From Acidithiobacillus thiooxidans ATCC 19377 (GTDB lineage: Bacteria > Pseudomonadota > Gammaproteobacteria > Acidithiobacillales > Acidithiobacillaceae): a stretch of DNA of 64,000 bases. Position 1 is the first letter of the stretch. Each line of letters opens with the position of its first letter. A model generated the notes under the pieces. That model ran no database searches. It saw only the letters and a list, made by a program, of their open reading frames with translations, and had not been told where the DNA came from. Location: the NCBI RefSeq assembly GCF_009662475.1, contig NZ_CP045571.1:680501-744500 (forward strand). The letters run 5' to 3'. The position numbers and the translations under genes are program-made. Positions 17,434 through 26,057 of the stretch are shown piece after piece.

Positions 17434-18748
17434 GAATGGAAGAACAGCCGGTGTTGCCATGGATAAGCAGGTCGTTGCCGACCATCTGCATACCCTTGAA
17501 CATGGCCTGCAGGCTCCCCGCAATGGTGATCTCCTCAACCGGATATTGAATCTCGCCATTTTCTATCCAGAAGCCGGCGGCACCGCGTGAATAGTCGCCG
17601 GTGACCATATTGATCCCAAAACCGATCAGTTCGGTGACCAGTAAACCCCGTCCCATTTCCCGGATCATTTCCTGCAGTGATCGGCTGCCGGGCTCCAGGG
17701 TCAGATTGTGGACACCTCCGGCATTTCCGGTGGTCGCCATCTGCAACTTGCGGCCACTGTAACTGTCGAGGATGTATCCCTGCAGAATGCCTTCGGAAAT
17801 AATGTCGCGATTGCAGGTGGCTACGCCTTCCGAGTCAAAGCTGGCACTGCCCAGCCCCTTGGGGCGCAAAGGTTCTTCATAAATGCGAATATGTTCCGGA
17901 AACAGGGTCTTGCCCAGGCTGTCCAACAGAAAGGAACTTTTACGATATAGACTGCCACCACTGATGGCACTGGCCAGGTGTCCAAGGATGCTGGAAGCCA
18001 CCTGATTTTCAAAAATCACCGGTGCCCTGGTGGTGGGTAGCTTACGGGCATCCAGACGCCGCACCGCCCGTTCGGCGGCAATTTTGCCGATACTTTCCGG
18101 ACTGGCCAATGCGCTGGCATTGCGGGCTACATCATACCAGTAGTCCCTTTGCATGCCGCCTTTCAGATCTTCGGCAATGACTGAGCAGGACAGGCTATGC
18201 TGGGACGATTGTCTTTTCCCCACAAAACCCAGACTGTTGGCGTAAACGGAAAGGCCTTCGCTGGTGCCCAGGCTTCCCCCTTCAGAATTGTGAATACGTG
18301 GATCACTATCACGGGCAGCCGCCTCGCAACGGCGTGCCAACTCTGCGGCCGTATCGGCGTCTATTGACCAGGGATGATAAAGATCCAGATCAGGGAACTC
18401 GCGGGCAAAAAGCTCCGGATCAGCCAGGCCCGAAAAGGGGTCTGCGGAGGTGTGACGGGCAATGGTGAGCGCGGCTTCCACGGTTTCGGCAATGGCCTTG
18501 CGCGAAAAATCCGAGGTGGAGGCACTACCTTTGGACTGCCCCAGGTAGACCGTCACACCCATTCCTTTATCCTGATTGTACTCAATGGATTCCACTTCAC
18601 CGAGGCGGACGGTCACAGAAAGTCCCTTGCCCGTACTCGCTGCCGCTTCTGCTGCAGTTGCCCCCTGTTTGCGGGCGAGAACCAGAATATCCTCGCTGAT
18701 CTGGCACAGGGTTTCGGCATTCAGGGTGGAATGGGGGGCTTGGCTCAT
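17402..18748 (-). CDS. pmbA: Metalloprotease-like protein PmbA/TldE
   Basis: A 448-aa TldE/PmbA protein, the non-catalytic partner of TldD in the TldD/E complex that degrades unstructured peptides and matures some modified peptides. Family stretches are seen: GKGLSVTVRLGEVESIEYNQ near the N-terminus, the central RPKGLGSASFDSEGVATC and C-terminal MVTGDYSRGAAGFWIENGEI. TldD itself is not in this window. It ends inside the lnt 3' end. An IS256 element is inserted 73 bp upstream of the start and may have replaced or separated its native promoter. Confidence 0.95.
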   Translation of the reverse strand: MSQAPHSTLNAETLCQISEDILVLARKQGATAAEAAASTGKGLSVTVRLGEVESIEYNQDKGMGVTVYLGQSKGSASTSDFSRKAIAETVEAALTIARHTSADPFSGLADPELFAREFPDLDLYHPWSIDADTAAELARRCEAAARDSDPRIHNSEGGSLGTSEGLSVYANSLGFVGKRQSSQHSLSCSVIAEDLKGGMQRDYWYDVARNASALASPESIGKIAAERAVRRLDARKLPTTRAPVIFENQVASSILGHLASAISGGSLYRKSSFLLDSLGKTLFPEHIRIYEEPLRPKGLGSASFDSEGVATCNRDIISEGILQGYILDSYSGRKLQMATTGNAGGVHNLTLEPGSRSLQEMIREMGRGLLVTELIGFGINMVTGDYSRGAAGFWIENGEIQYPVEEITIAGSLQAMFKGMQMVGNDLLIHGNTGCSSILIDEMMIAGE

Positions 18749-18821
18749 GGGCTTGGGTCTCGCTGTGAATGAAAGAATCCCGACATCTTACTCCCAAGCC
18801 ATCCGATGTAGAAAGAAAATG

Positions 18822-20236
18822 GAGCTATAGTCAAATCTGGTGTATGAGCATTTTCTGACATAGATCAGGCGGCGGTCTGTTGATCATCCGGCAGGGTGAG
18901 GTTAGCCGGTAAGCCATCGATAAATTTCACCCCTGCAAAAAGCTGCAGGACTTTCTCTGGAGCATAAATCCCAATCCAGCGTTTTTCAGCCTGCTGCAGC
19001 ATCTTGAAACCCAATCCCAGAAAGCTGCTGCGTGATACACAGTTCTTCGTCCGGGTAGTCCGGTGGCGTACCGTAGCGAAGGTGGACTCAATGGCATTGG
19101 TGGTCCGGATATGCCGCCAGTGTTCGGCCGGAAAATCATAGAAAGCGAGCAATTCAGCCCGATCTTTTTCCAGTTTAGCCACGGCCTTGGGATACTTTGC
19201 CTGGTAATTGCGCACAAACACGTCCAGTGCTTTTTCCGCAGCCTGGCGATTGGCGGCCATCCAGATTTCCTGCAACGCTGCCTTGGCTTTGCTCTGTTGG
19301 GCTTTGGGAAGTTCGTTGAGAATGTTGGCGGTCTTATGCACCCAGCAGCGTTGCTGACCAGTTTCGGGATAGGCTTCATCCAGTGCGGCCCAAAACCCCA
19401 TGGCACCATCCCCAATGGCGAGCAAAGGGGCCGCCTCCAGACCGCGCGCCTGCAGGTCACGCAGAATCTCCAGCCAGGAAGCTTTGGATTCGCGCAGGCC
19501 GTCACTGACACTGACCAGCTCTTTCTTGCCCTCTGCCGTCACGCCGATAATCACCAGCAGGCAGATACGCGGATCCTCCTCCGCACGGAGGTTCGTATAA
19601 ATACCGTCTACCCACCAGTAAGCATAGCGCTTTCCCTGTAGGGAGCGGTGTTGCCAATGGGCATACTCTTGCGCCCACTCCGCCTTGAGACGTCCCAACA
19701 CCGCAGGTGAAAGTCCCTTGGCCTCATCACCCAGCAAAATGGAAAGGGCTTCCTGCATGTGGCCGGAAGACACCCCATGCAGATAGAGCCAAGGTACTGT
19801 AGCGGCTACTGTTCGTGATTTGCGTACATACGGAGGCGCCAGTACCGAATTGAATTTGATCCCCGATCCTGAGCGGTCCCGCACCTTGGGTACTTTGACG
19901 GGTACCGGACCCAGAGCGGTCATGATCTCGCGCTCCGGCAGATGCCCATTACGCACGACCGCCTGACGCCCATCAACCATCCGCACCGTCGCAAATTCTT
20001 CCAGCAATACCGCCACCTCTGCCTCTATGGCCTGCTCAATCAGAGAGCGTGCCGCGCGTCGAAGTATCCCTTCAATGCCCAGACCCAACTCTCCCATCCC
20101 ACCTGCTATTACGGTATTCTTTTCCACGGCGTACTCCTTATGTTGCTCTTTGAGTCGGAAACCCTTTGTAGCAACAGTACGCCACCTCATTCAAGCCAGT
20201 TGTAACGCGCCCGTACACCACTTTCGAGCATAGCTC
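18822..20236 (-). mobile_element. IS256-family insertion sequence, complete (IST2-like size)
   Basis: A 1415-bp element with imperfect 28-bp terminal inverted repeats (18822-18849 and 20209-20236; both begin GAGCTAT inward and share TGGTGTA). It is flanked by a perfect 9-bp target duplication AAGAAAATG at 18813-18821 and 20237-20245. One intact transposase gene lies inside. IS256 members make 8-9 bp duplications, which fits. The length is close to what I recall for IST2 of Acidithiobacillus. The clean duplication indicates a fairly recent insertion between pmbA and the fold-back element. Confidence 0.95.
18865..20127 (-). CDS. IS256-family (Mutator-type) transposase
   Basis: A 420-aa DDE transposase with the IS256 pattern: first Asp in YWWVDGIY, second Asp in AIGDGAMGFW, the RCWVHKTANIL block, and Glu in RTTNAIESTF with the C/D(2)H-like region between. 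The GTG at 20127 is chosen because AAGGAG lies 6 nt upstream; the longer frame to 20190 would start inside the terminal region. No frameshift or internal stop is seen, so the element is probably still mobile. Confidence 0.93.
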   Translation of the reverse strand: MEKNTVIAGGMGELGLGIEGILRRAARSLIEQAIEAEVAVLLEEFATVRMVDGRQAVVRNGHLPEREIMTALGPVPVKVPKVRDRSGSGIKFNSVLAPPYVRKSRTVAATVPWLYLHGVSSGHMQEALSILLGDEAKGLSPAVLGRLKAEWAQEYAHWQHRSLQGKRYAYWWVDGIYTNLRAEEDPRICLLVIIGVTAEGKKELVSVSDGLRESKASWLEILRDLQARGLEAAPLLAIGDGAMGFWAALDEAYPETGQQRCWVHKTANILNELPKAQQSKAKAALQEIWMAANRQAAEKALDVFVRNYQAKYPKAVAKLEKDRAELLAFYDFPAEHWRHIRTTNAIESTFATVRHRTTRTKNCVSRSSFLGLGFKMLQQAEKRWIGIYAPEKVLQLFAGVKFIDGLPANLTLPDDQQTAA

Positions 20237-20268
20237 AAGAAAATGACTGATGAATGACTGTTGAACCT

Positions 20269-20465
20269 AAAAAATGGCCGTTGGGTCTGCAGGCTTTTTG
20301 CTCCATTGTTCATTGCCTGTTGTTCTACGGCTCATCCTGCTGTCAGGAGAGAACTCGCCCTGCGGGCTCAGACAGCTCTCCTGACGGGCGCAGGATTTCG
20401 CCAAGAACAACAACGGCTCGAAACAAAAGTCGCTGCAAAGCCTGCAGACCCAACGGCCATTTTTT
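20269..20465. repeat. 197-bp fold-back element with perfect 29-bp terminal inverted repeat
   Basis: The ends 20269-20297 and 20437-20465 are perfect 29-bp inverted copies (outer end AAAAAATGGCCG, inner end GCAGGCTTT). The interior continues to pair in the same register: TTGTTCT with AGAACAA, ATCCTGC with GCAGGAT, GTCAGGAGAG with CTCTCCTGAC, and GCCC with GGGC at the apex. The whole is one long interrupted hairpin. It codes for nothing convincing. Candidates are a MITE-like or REP-type repeat or a structured RNA. It lies just upstream of the bfd promoter. No flanking duplication is obvious. Confidence 0.8.
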
Positions 20466-20477
20466 GGGGTAATGTTA

Positions 20478-20506
20478 TTGACATGCATTATCATTTGCGT
20501 TTGAAT
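20478..20506 (+). promoter_or_regulatory. bfd-bfr promoter with Fur-like box
   Basis: TTGACA (20478-20483), a 17-nt spacer and TTGAAT (20501-20506) form a good sigma-70 promoter 30 nt upstream of bfd. The spacer contains, on the minus strand, a 19-bp sequence (20480-20498) matching 13 of 19 positions of the E. coli Fur consensus, with the core AATGATAAT intact. Iron control by Fur would suit the genes, but the operator call is inference. Confidence 0.55.
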
Positions 20507-20536
20507 GCTGTGTAAGAGCTTTTGATGAGAATAGCT

Positions 20537-20764
20537 ATGTATATATGCCTATGTAACGTTGTCACCGAAAAAGACATTCATCAGGCAGTATGTGAAGGTG
20601 CCTGTTCCATGCGGGATCTACGCCAACAGTTAGGTGTGGCCTCCCAGTGCGGGCGTTGTGCGACTTGTGCCAAAGCGATTCTGGATCAGGAAACGCAGCA
20701 TGCCAAAGCCATGCAATATCCCATGCATCAGCATTCCCGGTCTACACTCAAGCGTGCGGTCTAA
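20537..20764 (+). CDS. bfd: Bacterioferritin-associated ferredoxin
   Basis: A 75-aa [2Fe-2S] protein that docks on bacterioferritin and reduces its stored iron for release. The four cluster cysteines are in the family spacing: CLC near the N-terminus (MYICLCNVVTEKDIHQAV) and CGRC about 30 residues later. The ATG at 20537 matches the family's start; TTG 20522 and ATG 20525 are in frame but give an atypical leader. The C-terminal 20 residues (Gln/His/Met-rich) are longer than usual. It lies 50 bp upstream of bfr and is probably co-transcribed with it. Confidence 0.93.
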   Translation: MYICLCNVVTEKDIHQAVCEGACSMRDLRQQLGVASQCGRCATCAKAILDQETQHAKAMQYPMHQHSRSTLKRAV

Positions 20765-20813
20765 ACACTCATTTTCTAGTCCATTAAATTAACTATTCAA
20801 CCAGGAGCGCGTC

Positions 20814-21302
20814 ATGAAAGGGGATAAAAAAGTTATTCAGTTGTTGAACAAGGCACTGGCCATTGAGCTGACGGCCATTAATCAATATTTTCTGCATGCC
20901 CGCATGTACAAAAACTGGGGACTTTTTGCTTTGGGTAAGCATGAATATGCGGAATCCATTGAAGAAATGCAGCATGCCGACAAACTCATCGAACGTATTC
21001 TGTTTCTGGAAGGCCTACCCAATCTGCAGGACCTGAATAAATTACTCATCGGTGAAAATGTCGCTGAATGCTTGGCTTGTGACTTGAAACTGGAAGAAGC
21101 TGGCCGTGCCCATTATGTTGAGGCCATCCATTATTGTGAATCGGTCAAAGACTACGTCTCGCGTGACATTCTCGTCGAAATTCAGGAGCAGACTGAAGAG
21201 CATATTGACTGGCTGGAAACCCACATTGATCTGATCGACAAAATGGGTTTACCCAACTTTATGCAAACGGCCTCGGGTCCTTTGGGTGCTGGGGCCGATT
21301 AA
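20814..21302 (+). CDS. bfr: Bacterioferritin subunit with Thr at ferroxidase position 127
   Basis: A 162-aa subunit of the 24-mer haem-containing iron store. Met52, the haem ligand, is present, as are ferroxidase ligands E18, E51, H54, E94 and H130. Position 127, Glu in E. coli Bfr, is Thr here (QTEEH, where E. coli has DEEGH with no gap). The site should therefore bind or oxidise iron less well, or the protein may work as one partner of a mixed shell. AGGAGCGCGTC precedes the ATG. Its stop overlaps the convergent DUF1826 gene by 4 bp. Confidence 0.95.
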
Positions 21303-21961
21303 TCATTCCAAAGCGCATCCAGGGAAAGCGCAATGCGCATTTTCCCTGTGCTGCCCAGGGCCGGGGAACGATGTATGATCCCCTTTCCGGCATTGTTTTC
21401 CCAGGCCTCTCCTTTGAGCAGAGCGATGGCAAATGCGGGGACCTCCCCGATGCCGCGAGGATCGCGAATTAGCCCGGATTTCAGGTCCGCCAGTCCTCGG
21501 GATCCCTCTCCCAGTTTACTGCGATCCGCATAATCACTGCTTAGCCATTGCGTGCCCGGCCCTTTCCAGGTGCACAACAAACGGATTCCCGTAAAATCTG
21601 TATGGAATCTTGGGCACATAGCCCGATCGAGAACCATCAGGCGAAGCGCGATAGCGTCGCAACCGGTTAAATCGAAGTAAAGCTCCATCAGGAAGCGTAT
21701 GTCTTTCAGTAAGAACTCCCGGCCGGATAAGTCGGGCAACAGCTCTGCAGGGAAAAGCGTTCCACGATTGAAGGATTGGCGAATTCCGCTGCCCAGATCA
21801 TTTTCGGCGGCATCCAGATAATCCAGTATTTCCGGTTGTTGGGATCTTTGCATTATGCACAGCTGGACGTCCGTATCGAAAATGCTGACAAGATCGGCAA
21901 GTTGATCTACGAACAGTATTTCATCGGTTCCTGCACCTTGTTTTAATGTGGCTTGCGACAT
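21299..21961 (-). CDS. DUF1826 protein, zinc-regulon associated
   Basis: A 220-aa soluble protein of the DUF1826 family. The conserved segments [22 protein letters not shown] and [19 protein letters not shown] resemble a cupin-like or oxygenase-like metal site (His-x-Asp, later His). Members are commonly found beside COG0523 GTPases under zinc control, exactly as here: it follows the GTPase gene by 9 bp on the same strand. Biochemical function is unknown to me. The best inference is a role in the low-zinc response. Confidence 0.8.
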
Positions 21962-21970
21962 GGGAACTCC

Positions 21971-23170
21971 TCACCATTCCGGAAATGGGTCAACAAAACC
22001 ATTCCATGCCGACGGACCCTGCTGCCACTCTGCATCGGTAAGCAAGCAATCGCTCAGAGATTGACGGATCTTGTCTTCATCCATGTTTTGTCCGATAAAA
22101 ACCAGCTCCTGGCGGCGGTCGCCCCATTCTCCCTGAAAATGTTTCTCGATAGCCTGGCGTTCTTCAGGATCTTTAGGCCAGTATTTTTTGGGGGTGTCGG
22201 CCCACCATTGTCCGGCCGCTTGATGTCGGAAAATTCCCCCGGCCTGAGACCAGAGTCCTGCGACATCCGGCCGGCTCGCTAACCAGAAAAATCCCTTGCT
22301 GCGTAATACGCTGTCCCAATTCTGATGCATCAAGTCCCAGAATCGTTGCGGATGAAAGGGGCGGCGAGCGGCAAAATGAAAACTGCCAATACCATATTCC
22401 GTACTTTCAGGAATATGTTCCCCGCGCATTTCCATCAACCATCCGGGGGCCTGGCTGGCTTCTTCAAAGTCAAAAAGACCGGTTTGCAGTACGCGACTGA
22501 CAGGAACCCGACCAAACTCGGAAATTTCAATGCGCGCCCGAGGATTGAGCGCATTCAAAATAGCCATCAAGCTCTGCTGTTCTTCCGGGCTGATGAGGCC
22601 CACCTTGTTCAACACCAGCACATTGCAGAATTCAATCTGCTCAATCAGGAGGTCGGTAATGGTGCGCTCATCTTCTGCGCCCAGTGACTCTCCACGATCG
22701 CGCAATAATTGAGCGTCGGCATATTCCCGTAGAAAGTTATAGGCATCCACGACCGTCACCATGGTATCCAGGCGCGCCAACTGTGACAGTGAGCTGCCTT
22801 GTTCATCCTCAAATGTGAAGGTTTCGGCGACGGGCAAAGGCTCAGAAATCCCCGTGGATTCAATTACCAATTGGTCAAAACGCCCTTCTTTTGCCAATAA
22901 GGCCACCTCCTCAAGCAAATCTTCCCGGAGCGTGCAGCAGATGCAGCCATTGGACATTTCAACGACTTTTTCTTCCGTGCGTGATAGTTGCGCGCCCCCT
23001 TCACGGACCAGGGCGGCATCAATATTGATTTCACTCATGTCATTGACAATTACTGCGACACGCCGGTCTTCCCGGTTGTGCAGGATATGGTTGAGGAGCG
23101 TGGTTTTGCCGGCACCGAGAAAACCCGACAACACGGTGACGGGAAGGGGAGTGGTGGAGAGCTGGGACAT
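21971..23170 (-). CDS. COG0523 metal-chaperone GTPase (ZigA/YciC type)
   Basis: A 399-aa GTPase of the G3E/CobW class thought to deliver zinc to client enzymes when zinc is scarce. Walker A GFLGAGKT is at 16-23, the metal motif CxCC is at 76-79 (GCICC), and switch region IESTGISEP is present. A C-terminal CobW domain follows ([19 protein letters not shown]). The base-specificity motif is NKVG instead of the usual NKxD. A Zur-like palindrome lies 43 bp upstream of the start, and the DUF1826 gene follows, which together support a zinc-starvation operon. Confidence 0.9.
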
Positions 23171-23212
23171 GGTAAATCCTCACAATGATAACTGAAACGG
23201 CATGCCATAATA

Positions 23213-23258
23213 TGCAACTAAGTTGCACATAACAACATGGGAATCCTGTGCAGGTCAA
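23213..23258 (-). promoter_or_regulatory. Putative Zur operator and promoter of the COG0523 operon
   Basis: The palindrome TGCAACTAAGTTGCA (23213-23227) lies between a possible -35 (TTGACC on the minus strand, 23253-23258) and the GTPase start. Fourteen of its 15 bases recur in the importer promoter at 26867-26881. Shared presence at a COG0523 gene and a metal importer is the pattern expected for Zur. The regulator itself is not in this window. Confidence 0.65.
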
Positions 23259-23362
23259 GCGAGGAGAACACAAAGCGCCCTCTTTTGTTGCCAAAGTCGC
23301 GGCAGGCCTCCGGGCTGACAGCCGGCTGGGTTCCATTTGCAGAGGTGTGGATATTACTGGTA

Positions 23363-23391
23363 TTGACTACACAAATGATAATCGTTTACAT
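23363..23391 (+). promoter_or_regulatory. Promoter of the FeoC-like gene with Fur-like box
   Basis: TTGACT (23363-23368), 17 nt, TTACAT (23386-23391). Within it, 23371-23389 matches the Fur consensus at 13 of 19 positions with core ATGATAATC. This places a likely iron-responsive repressor site across the promoter. Confidence 0.5.
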
Positions 23392-23443
23392 TAATAACCA
23401 GTGGTTGTGCTGTTTTGTCTATAAGACTTTCAAGGAGACGAAT

Positions 23444-23713
23444 ATGCTGAAAGAAGTACTCGCCCATGTGCGCCAATATCCGGGCATCACTCTGGAGTCG
23501 TTGATTGATTTACATGCTGCCGATGCGGAGTACATGTCCGCATTGCTGGCTAAACTCACCAAAAATGGTCAGTTGCTGGCGATGGAAACCGGCTGTGCAG
23601 AAAGTGGCCGTTGTCGGGAAGGCGGCAATAAACCATCCCGCATCTGCTTTTTTTGTTCGGCTGTGGATAAGGCCAACCTGGAATACAGCCAGTCCGTGAT
23701 GTTGCATTCCTGA
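23444..23713 (+). CDS. FeoC-like winged-helix protein with Cys cluster
   Basis: An 89-aa protein with the FeoC outline. An N-terminal winged-helix part (MLKEVLAHVRQYPGITLESL ... SALLAKLTKNGQL) is followed by a loop and tail carrying four cysteines (CAESGRC and later CFFC) that could bind an iron-sulfur cluster. AAGGAG lies 7 nt before the ATG. FeoC usually accompanies FeoA/FeoB ferrous transporters; neither is nearby, so this copy stands alone among metal genes under a Fur-like promoter. It may act as an iron- or redox-sensing regulator; that is inference. Confidence 0.65.
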   Translation: MLKEVLAHVRQYPGITLESLIDLHAADAEYMSALLAKLTKNGQLLAMETGCAESGRCREGGNKPSRICFFCSAVDKANLEYSQSVMLHS

Positions 23714-23886
23714 ACAGAGCCTGTTTTTTATGGGCCTTATGACATTTTTTGTGGGTGTTGGTTTTTCCGCAGACTGTTTGCCTGCTCCGAAGGCATAGTC
23801 AAACATCAATTATGTCGGTCGGAAATCATGGGAAACCTGAGCTGAACAATGACTTTTTCTTCACGACGCGCCAGCATATGGCGATT

Positions 23887-23913
23887 GGTAGCCTGAATGA
23901 GGCTACCTTTTTT
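23887..23913 (+). terminator. Rho-independent terminator
   Basis: Stem GGTAGCCT / AGGCTACC (8 bp), loop GAATG, then six T. It lies 174 bp past the FeoC-like stop. The rest of the 437-bp gap 23714-24149 shows no convincing gene; a 63-codon frame across the terminator is not believable. Confidence 0.85.
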
Positions 23914-24149
23914 ATGGTCCGCGAGCGTAACGGGTTTTAATCTTAGGTTTTCCTGGTCGGAGCGTATGGTGGCCATCAATGGGCAATTTTCCACAAAAAG
24001 CGCTGGTGTGCTGCTCCGTGTGGCATTAAAGCCAATAGTAAGGTTAGGGTATAATTAAAATTGTAGCGAGCTAACTGAATTTCTATTTTGTTACTGGTCT
24101 TGCAAAGAATTAAGATTAATGATGTGTTAATCGACACAGGAGATCGATA

Positions 24150-24971: not shown

Positions 24972-26057
24972 CTAGTGTAGTGTTGCATTCTGTTTGCTGC
25001 TTAAATGGCTGTTGGCGCGAATGACTTTTTGCAGGATGTCGCGGGCGGTTTTGGTCCAGATGAAAGGTTTGGGATGGGTGTTGTGGTGGTCGATGTACCC
25101 CTCAATGGCCTGGATGAGTTCAGGCACACTGGTGAACACCCCACGACGTAACCGCTGGGTCGTGATATCCCGAAAGAAACGCTCGACCATGTTGAGCCAG
25201 GATGCCGAAGTGGGCGTAAAGTGCATGTGAATACGCGGGTGCTTGTCGAGCCACGCCTGTACTACCGGGTGTTTATGGGTCGCATAGTTGTCGGCGATCA
25301 AATGCAGAGCCTTGTCCTTGGGCGTCTGCCGATCAATTTTCTTCAGGAACTTCAGCCATTCCACATGGGTATGGCGCTGTTGACACTGTCCGATGACCTG
25401 ACCATCCAGCACGTTGAGGGCGGCAAACAAGGTCGTGGTACCATTACGTTTGTAGTCGTGGGTCATCGTTTCTGCGCGGCCCTTTTTGAGGGGAAGTCCC
25501 GGTTGGGTCCGGTCCAGGGCCTGCACCTGACTTTTTTCATCCGCGCAGAGCACCAAGGCATGCTCCGGGGGAGACATATACAACCCCACAATATCTTCCA
25601 GCTTTTCCACAAAATGCGGGTCACGTGACACCTTGAAACCACGCAGCAGATGAGGCTTGAGGCCATGCTTGCGCCAATGCCGTGACACACTGGCGGCACT
25701 GACACCCAGTTCTGCCGCCATCCTACGCGTACTCCAATGCGTCATCGCTTCCGGCTTACTCTGCGTGGTCAATTCTACCAGACGGGCCACATCCACTTTC
25801 ACCGGAGGGGCGCCGCGCGGTAAATCGCGTTCAATGCCCGACAAGCGGTGTTCCAGATAACGCTTGCGCCAACGTGCGACTTGCAGGCGATCCACCCCCA
25901 GGCGCTCCGCAATTTCTTTGTTCTGCAAGCCCTCTGCCGCCAGCAATATCATCCGTGCCCGTAATGACAAGCGGACACTGCTTAATCGGGAGGCGACTAT
26001 ACGGGACAACTCGGACCGCTCTTCGCTGGTTAAAGTGACTGTGGGCGCAACTCGCAA
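24972..26057 (-). CDS. IS630-family transposase
   Basis: A 361-aa DDE transposase of the IS630 type. An N-terminal helix-turn-helix region (LQNKEIAERLGVDRLQVARW, then a second HTH near VSAASVSRHWRKHG) precedes the catalytic core: first Asp in LCADEKSQ, second Asp in LIADNYATHK, Glu in SWLNMVERFF. The start is TTG at 26057 with GGAG 8 nt upstream. The terminal TAG is made of the target TA plus the first host base beyond the element, so the reading end depends on the insertion site. The frame is intact. Confidence 0.92.
   Translation of the reverse strand: MRVAPTVTLTSEERSELSRIVASRLSSVRLSLRARMILLAAEGLQNKEIAERLGVDRLQVARWRKRYLEHRLSGIERDLPRGAPPVKVDVARLVELTTQSKPEAMTHWSTRRMAAELGVSAASVSRHWRKHGLKPHLLRGFKVSRDPHFVEKLEDIVGLYMSPPEHALVLCADEKSQVQALDRTQPGLPLKKGRAETMTHDYKRNGTTTLFAALNVLDGQVIGQCQQRHTHVEWLKFLKKIDRQTPKDKALHLIADNYATHKHPVVQAWLDKHPRIHMHFTPTSASWLNMVERFFRDITTQRLRRGVFTSVPELIQAIEGYIDHHNTHPKPFIWTKTARDILQKVIRANSHLSSKQNATLH

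Follow-up and report, generated by a model that had tools for sequence, protein, structure and literature searches.

A hairpin element of Acidithiobacillus, very probably a MITE with IS1380-type ends, with co-changing arms and a probably constrained core

The long interrupted hairpin beside bfd in Acidithiobacillus thiooxidans ATCC 19377 is, as judged by sequence comparison, very probably one copy of a non-autonomous MITE of Acidithiobacillus with IS1380-type ends. This reading follows from its dispersal, the 204-bp gaps at empty sites, the 5-bp duplications and the similarity of its ends to those of insertion sequences. Taken as a whole, the data are probably best explained by such a MITE, with template switching acting on its arms and constraint acting on its core.

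The hairpin at bfd

Positions are those of the window, a stretch of 64,000 nucleotides (680,501 to 744,500 of contig NZ_CP045571.1). The preliminary description had reported a fold-back with nested complementary blocks at 20269-20465. The fold-back was recovered, with the 29 bp inward from 20269 and 20465 perfectly complementary and with inner helices inside the hairpin, and the true unit proved slightly bigger. Its parts at this site are as follows.

20266-20468, no strand: the whole element, an interrupted hairpin and putative MITE copy (from the fold, the arms and the dispersed matches)
20266-20292, plus strand: left arm or terminal inverted repeat CCTAAAAAATGGCCGTTGGGTCTGCAG, 27 bp here, complementary to 20442-20468
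20293-20441, plus strand: conserved core of 149 bp, the part inverted between species (from the match among copies)
20342-20385, plus strand: apical hairpin with the enclosing stem GTCAGGAGAG/CTCTCCTGAC, three pairs of which are compensated in related species
20352-20374, plus strand: apical motif AACTCGCCCTGCGGGCTCAGACA, common to repeats of some other Gammaproteobacteria
20442-20468, plus strand: right arm or terminal inverted repeat, complementary to the left arm

The complementarity of the arms extends over 32 nt (20266-20297 and 20437-20468, 97% complementary). Folded as DNA, 20260-20475 reaches -71.4 kcal/mol (z = -10.1), and none of 200 shuffles folded equally well. The element had also been described as lacking coding capacity. 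No recognised gene was found in it, but ORFs of 72-84 aa do cross it. The possible starts of bfd (20522/20525) lie 53-56 bp beyond the element end, and Pfam supports the identity of both bfd (Fer2_BFD) and bfr (Ferritin). The original gene to the left is pmbA, whose transcription runs away from the element. This copy is located between divergent genes (pmbA / bfd-bfr), a context in which no role for bfd itself is claimed, and it lacks a clean target duplication.

An IS256-type insertion sequence (18822-20236, Transposase_mut) lies between pmbA and the hairpin, flanked by the 9-bp direct repeat AAGAAAATG at 18813-18821 and 20237-20245. At the orthologous site in the related genome G010 (L031) the hairpin is present and the insertion absent, so the hairpin is older. 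The earlier suggestion of a barrier protecting bfd-bfr from the IS256 insertion is thus not supported. The position between pmbA and bfd-bfr would suit a local transcription barrier that arose at bfd, but this explanation has a negligible probability and is contradicted by the greater age of the element and by its copy number, with 37 other strong copies in the same genome and more in relatives. Elsewhere in the window, a 361-aa frame (24972-26057, minus strand) resembles an IS630-type transposase and may be one.

A dispersed family

The A. thiooxidans genome (G000) contains 38 strong copies including the one at bfd, plus fragments; one of the strong copies is only 116 bp long. Of the 30 genomes searched, this one included, 8 gave matches; seven belong to the genus and the eighth to a different GTDB genus within the family. 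The 7 carriers among the 29 other genomes are all Acidithiobacillus as far as identified. A core-pattern scan of named genomes returned Acidithiobacillus and one MAG labelled Proteobacteria among the 80 matches listed of at least 120 stretches. In G004, 29 of the 30 copies show at least 86% identity; after the copies, the complete list for this genome passes to fragments shorter than 50 bp, with almost no half-decayed copies. Viral contigs searched with exact patterns, and plasmids and phages searched with the 216-bp element, gave no match.

The preliminary description had proposed a mobile MITE-like repeat, and its dispersal, the empty sites, the duplicated targets and the IS1380-type ends all speak for it. 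Far from being single-copy and free of compensatory changes in relatives, the element is the opposite on both counts. Among open-licence PMC papers, searches for Acidithiobacillus together with MITE or miniature inverted-repeat returned nothing relevant, and a wider search listed none on this element. The main text of a paper on insertion sequences in the genus (PMC10214660) does not use the word MITE. The presence of about 40 long hairpins in Acidithiobacillus gene gaps matters for annotation, and the hairpins may influence where transcripts end.

Altogether 150 copies were gathered, of which 138 had arms alignable at 18 or more of 25 positions and 12 were left out. Copies in G001, G003, G004 and G010 were first taken from a ranked list of about 26 scored per genome, which favours conserved copies, and most but not all listed copies in relatives were used (5 of 10 in G017). 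The complete G004 list changed neither the set of 19 two-sided orthologous pairs with G000 nor the core divergence of 4.7%. Orthologue counts exclude one-sided or odd flank matches, and 4 of the 73 orthologous pairs were left out of the arm and core divergence counts.

Empty sites, target duplications and ends

The unit measures about 199 bp (25-bp arms and a 149-bp core). Empty sites were aligned using 20 stretches at ten sites where another genome has no intact copy. The largest gap was exactly 204 bp in 7 of these empty or remnant stretches and 205 bp in one, the remaining ones being complicated by remnants or additional indels. For the sites L024 and L014, the 204-bp difference consists of the 199-bp unit and one copy of TTTAT or TTCAT. 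Clean empty sites have neither arms nor any palindrome; the arms therefore belong to the mobile unit, and insertion of the core into pre-existing palindromes is ruled out. Exact 5-bp target duplications flank 21 of the 138 copies, against 1.6 expected from shuffled flanks, and are AT-rich (e.g. TTCAT, TTTAT, TTAAT). The element thus has what is expected of a bacterial MITE (it is short, carries no transposase, is dispersed, and has terminal inverted repeats and a target duplication), together with IS1380-type ends and a duplication of the same 5-bp length and type.

The MITE end CCTAAAAACGGCAGTT differs by 1-2 of 16 bases from the ends of IS1380-family elements near PF13701 transposases in the genus. 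Since every IS end found shows such differences, these elements are candidate partners at most. The ends found were CCTAAAAACAGCAGTT, or CCTAAATTCGGCAGTT / CCTAAAAAAAGCAGTT. The form CCTAAAAACAGCAGTT, compared here with the MITE end, comes from left-type ends, of which L039 has two and L185 one, and the right-type ends CCTAGAAAAAGCAGTT and CCTAAAAAAAGCAGTT differ more than the left-type ones. In G011, all 7 listed IS1380-type copies have matching 5-bp flanks (e.g. ATTAT, ATCAT, TTTAT). In many MITE copies, L025 and L055 among them, the arms have drifted away and do not resemble the IS end. The 216-bp query gave only chance-length matches to the insertion sequences in L039 and L041.

The MITE, with its CCTRAAAACGGCAGTT-like ends and 5-bp AT-rich target duplication, would have been moved in trans by an IS1380-family transposase. 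A partner transposase was not found in every MITE-bearing genome: PF13701 gave no match in G001 or G016 and sub-threshold matches only in G010, and conversely G011, G013 and G014 possess a PF13701 transposase and no MITE match (several of the genomes compared are drafts). Past transposase activity would suffice to explain the MITE-bearing genomes without a partner. The sole PF13701 match above the cut-off in the A. thiooxidans genome is a 354-aa frame; the genus also has longer ones, such as an open frame of 533 aa in G011. At L039 (1193-3645; G000:C1 ~2415933-2418385), a second, inverted copy of the IS1380-type left end stands about 2.4 kb from the first (75 and 72 nt, 84-88%). The two ends enclose the transposase frame and a 210-aa frame that by eye resembles a fragment of a membrane transporter, possibly forming a composite unit.

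Changes in the arms

Within a copy, left and right arm agree at 91.5% of positions (95.8% over the inner 17; 138 copies), against 54% between different copies (inner 17 positions 56%), and the 138 copies have 97 distinct inner left arms. At orthologous sites, 180 of 1380 arm columns changed on both arms and 100 on one. One-sided changes dominate in G000-G004, the closest well-sampled pair (38 vs 14), and slightly in the small sample from G000-G001 (3 vs 2 co-changes). In the other 10 genome pairs co-changes outnumber them, e.g. 5 one-sided changes vs 23 co-changes in G000-G010. This order, one-sided changes first and co-changes in remoter pairs, matches mutation followed by homogenisation. Arm divergence is 16.7% (bootstrap 12.5-21.4%), near that of fourfold sites (15.2%).

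Arm mismatches show no wobble enrichment, with 31 G-T vs 37 A-C in the inner 17 positions and, for copies flanked by tandem genes, 9 vs 15 on the strand that is transcribed. G-U mismatches being no commoner than their A-C mirror, there is no sign that RNA wobble selection maintains the arms, and this idea was rejected; template switching accounts for the arms better than RNA-stem selection does. An inserted hairpin would extrude during replication, and the polymerase may then switch template between the arms. This one process could re-equalise the arms after mutation, flip the core through exchange inside the arms and sometimes delete the middle. Such a deletion would run from one 6-bp direct repeat (TGCCGT) to the other and leave behind a palindrome of about 28 bp. 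Template switching is the likely driver of arm homogenisation, core flips and scars alike.

Template switching has been reported to homogenise arms and invert spacers (PMC8604942) and to take part in the upkeep of paired stems (PMC8794818). The likeness to the present case lies in these three features. The published hairpins were described in yeast genes and RNA genes, whereas here the process is inferred for a dispersed bacterial element at many independent sites.

Core inversion and deletion scars

Orthologous copies often have the core in opposite orientations relative to the flanks: 33 of 73 pairs do so, representing 23 of 44 sites. At the bfd site it points one way in G000 and G010 and the opposite way in G003 and G004. 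Of the arm base differences that could be followed across flips, 7 at the outer ends stay with the flank and none swaps, and one inner case swaps; 36 others were homogenised in the second copy and 10 were ambiguous. Given the outer arm bases, the exchange most likely happens inside the arms.

A dedicated invertase, i.e. a site-specific recombinase flipping the core between the arms as a phase-variation switch, would also produce inversion at so many sites, and near-perfect inverted repeats do flank the core. It is nevertheless very improbable: the arms differ between copies and so offer no constant recombination site, the mismatched outer bases stay with the flank and most other cases are homogenised or ambiguous, and the flipped product would have nearly the same shape, leaving little to switch.

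A palindromic deletion scar is the classic product of slippage across a hairpin. Searches of ten genomes uncovered five such palindromes of about 28 bp, at L042, L045 and L047 in G000 and at L415 and L417 in G001. Each consists of the outer parts of both arms joined together, at the direct repeat TGCCGT in four cases and at a looser match in the fifth. Three of the five are found at sites where another species has the full element. These scars fit the template-switch picture.

Compensatory stem changes are usually read as a strong sign of functional RNA. At the 44 interspecies sites the stems covary, flip and scar without wobble preference, suggesting that DNA replication can mimic RNA covariation. 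The family is a natural test set for bacterial template switching and a caution for RNA-family discovery.

Constraint on the core

In every genome pair orthologous cores diverge by 2.7-6.1%, compared with 10-51% at fourfold sites. The longest comparison rests on one pair, the site L067 (G010) / L150 (G016), where the arms are largely different but paired and the core has diverged by 2.7% at a fourfold divergence of 51% (147 sites). In G000-G004 the core (4.7%) is barely below the adjacent flank (5.1%). Over all pairs, core divergence is 4.7% vs 5.7% in the local flank or 9.2% measured 8-48 bp outside the arms, and the core is the less diverged in 43 of 69 pairs. Constraint is therefore clear against fourfold sites and over longer distances, but not against the near flank in G000-G004. 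The core probably keeps a selected function.

The structured RNA that the preliminary description also proposed is a rather unlikely alternative: selection at the RNA level would keep the closing stem of a non-coding RNA paired, and mobility would be incidental. In its favour, the core is nearly invariant across species, the substitution rate differs strongly between columns so that variation is confined to a few of them, and two U-G pairs are retained on the plus strand in 125 and 137 of 138 copies. In a set of 38 diverse cores the proportion of cells that pair is 97.6%, and both sides changed in 9 pairs (54 cells); neither count of changes was reached in any of 500 shuffles, and slid controls gave at most 5 pairs and 11 cells. 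Template switching itself can create compensated changes, however, and further pair types were no more abundant than in shuffles (23 vs 22.7; 287 of 500). The arm mismatches lack G-U enrichment on any strand tested, the plus strand folds better than the minus strand in only 6 of 138 cores, and core orientation relative to the neighbours flips freely. A promoter-like site was looked for inside the element and none was found, and Rfam gave no match up to E = 1 in window positions 18000-24000.

Homogeneity of the core could alternatively stem from ectopic gene conversion among copies of a functionless, purely selfish DNA, which is judged unlikely as well. In 69 tests the core nearest to a given one was its orthologue only 22 and 16 times, as conversion would predict, and the differing arms would limit conversion tracts to the core. 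Against it, conversion is not expected to produce the strong rate differences between columns, in 62 of 69 pairs the distance to the orthologous core is smaller than the mean distance to non-orthologous ones, and the core consensus is conserved across two GTDB genera. In addition, L150 has an A-type core like its orthologue L067, although 6 of the 8 copies read in G016 are B-type or intermediate.

Genomic placement

Gaps between convergent genes hold 59 of 108 assigned copies, compared with 52 of 286 control gaps (Fisher p ~6e-12, a test that counts orthologous copies separately although they are not independent). Gene context was assigned by a simple longest-ORF rule, which placed 108 of the 138 copies and left 30 unassigned. 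G000 taken by itself has 18 convergent copies among 31 assigned, and 13 of the 108 overall lie in divergent gaps. A stop codon is no more than 20 bp from the element end in 104 of 154 cases, and a start is equally close in 8 of 62. AT-rich TTNAT-like target words, which can include reversed stop codons, together with the loss of harmful insertions, may explain part of this.

The likeliest function, offered as a tentative suggestion somewhat short of probable, is that the core may act as a two-way 3'-end hairpin between convergent genes, serving as a terminator or as protection of mRNA ends. Such a symmetric role would explain why flipping of the core is tolerated. Intrinsic terminators are short GC-rich hairpins with a U-tract behind them, at which transcription stops. 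In many copies the arms end in GCCGTTTTT when read outward, on both strands. A terminator scan, the loop limit of which (3-8) cannot detect this hairpin, gave nothing above chance at the element. A terminator role makes little sense for the copies between divergent genes, the one at bfd included.

Comparison with known elements

The element represents a MITE family that is new but belongs to a known kind; its template-switch record is unusually clear and its core probably constrained. It is set apart from Correia elements and QMITE by their descriptions. ISEcp1 is the best-known relative in the IS1380 family (PF13701). Insertion sequences of that family resemble the present element in their ends and 5-bp AT-rich target duplications, and differ from it in carrying a transposase.

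REP, BIME and REPIN sequences are dispersed palindromes often located near gene 3' ends, in which respect they are similar; the REP/REPIN type is marked by a REP-type tag and a TnpA-REP partner. REPs are 20-40 bp long (PMC3733652). At about 199 bp, with target duplications and IS1380-type ends, the element falls outside the REP/REPIN group.

Correia elements have Correia-type ends and a TA duplication. The Acidithiobacillus element, set against them by description, has ends CCTAAAAACGGCAG and 5-bp duplications and is not a member. Correia repeat enclosed elements of Neisseria are likewise small MITEs, and their inversion in place has been reported (PMC10969869, citing Elbeyioglu 2017). They are located mainly immediately upstream of genes and carry promoters (PMC10969869), whereas the Acidithiobacillus element, again by description, prefers gene 3' ends and convergent gaps and has IS1380-type ends and arms that drift and change together. 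QMITE of Coxiella burnetii, also compared by description, is a MITE of similar dimensions (inverted repeats 23-29 bp, core 113-145 bp, predicted transcript fold -113; PMC10969869). Its direct repeats are 7-9 bp long rather than 5 bp, and the account of QMITE in that source mentions neither inversion nor arm covariation.

The apical motif outside the genus

A covariance model of the core, run under stricter filters on 274 genomes of the class, detected only the A. thiooxidans genome itself and the distant genome G278 (partial apical matches). The strict apical pattern was present in 3 of 398 genomes of the phylum, A. thiooxidans included. The looser pattern AACTCGN{6,9}CTCARACA occurred in 45 of 274 genomes and its reversed control in 34, so single matches are at chance level. 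Multiple matches are another matter: 36 in A. thiooxidans, 14 in G076, 11 in G278, 9 in G131 and 4 in G212, against 0-3 per genome for the control. In these genomes the inner stem differs yet remains paired (GCCC/GGGC, GGGC/GCCC, GGCC/GGCC), and several of the motifs lie within larger hairpin repeats. A search with the 44-nt apical hairpin gave weak matches only (E 2 to 9 among the matches listed).

Multi-copy hairpin repeats with AACTC-[variable hairpin]-TCARACA were found in other Gammaproteobacteria (L327, L329, L336, L337, L341, L345, L360, L383). Several of them start with a module CTTTTCTTTG...CAAAGAAAAG...CAAAAGAAAG, which alone also matches Aeromonas, Pseudoalteromonas and Pasteurella plasmid records. 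Searches of open-licence PMC papers for the literal motif strings gave no hit and no name for these repeats; the intrastrand triplex motif of PMC4666352 is a different one, from E. coli.

The apical motif may be shared by homology or by convergence. The constrained core and the recurrent motif together point to a possible unnamed structural module in Gammaproteobacteria. Much more speculatively, and on balance doubtfully, the core, and most of all AACTC-[variable hairpin]-TCARACA within its variable stem, could be an unrecognised structured nucleic-acid module, spread through Gammaproteobacteria in otherwise unrelated-looking multi-copy repeats and recognised by a host factor, either as RNA or as folded DNA. 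An IS1380-type MITE would then have turned it, in Acidithiobacillus, into a portable, orientation-blind 3'-end device, its stem being kept perfect by template switching and not by selection on stem sequence.

In a scan of 11 apical-motif loci, no Rfam family exceeded its gathering score at the motif itself. Near one apical-motif site in another gammaproteobacterium (L369, 1317-1413, minus strand), the Rfam family AaHKsRNA22 was detected above its gathering score.
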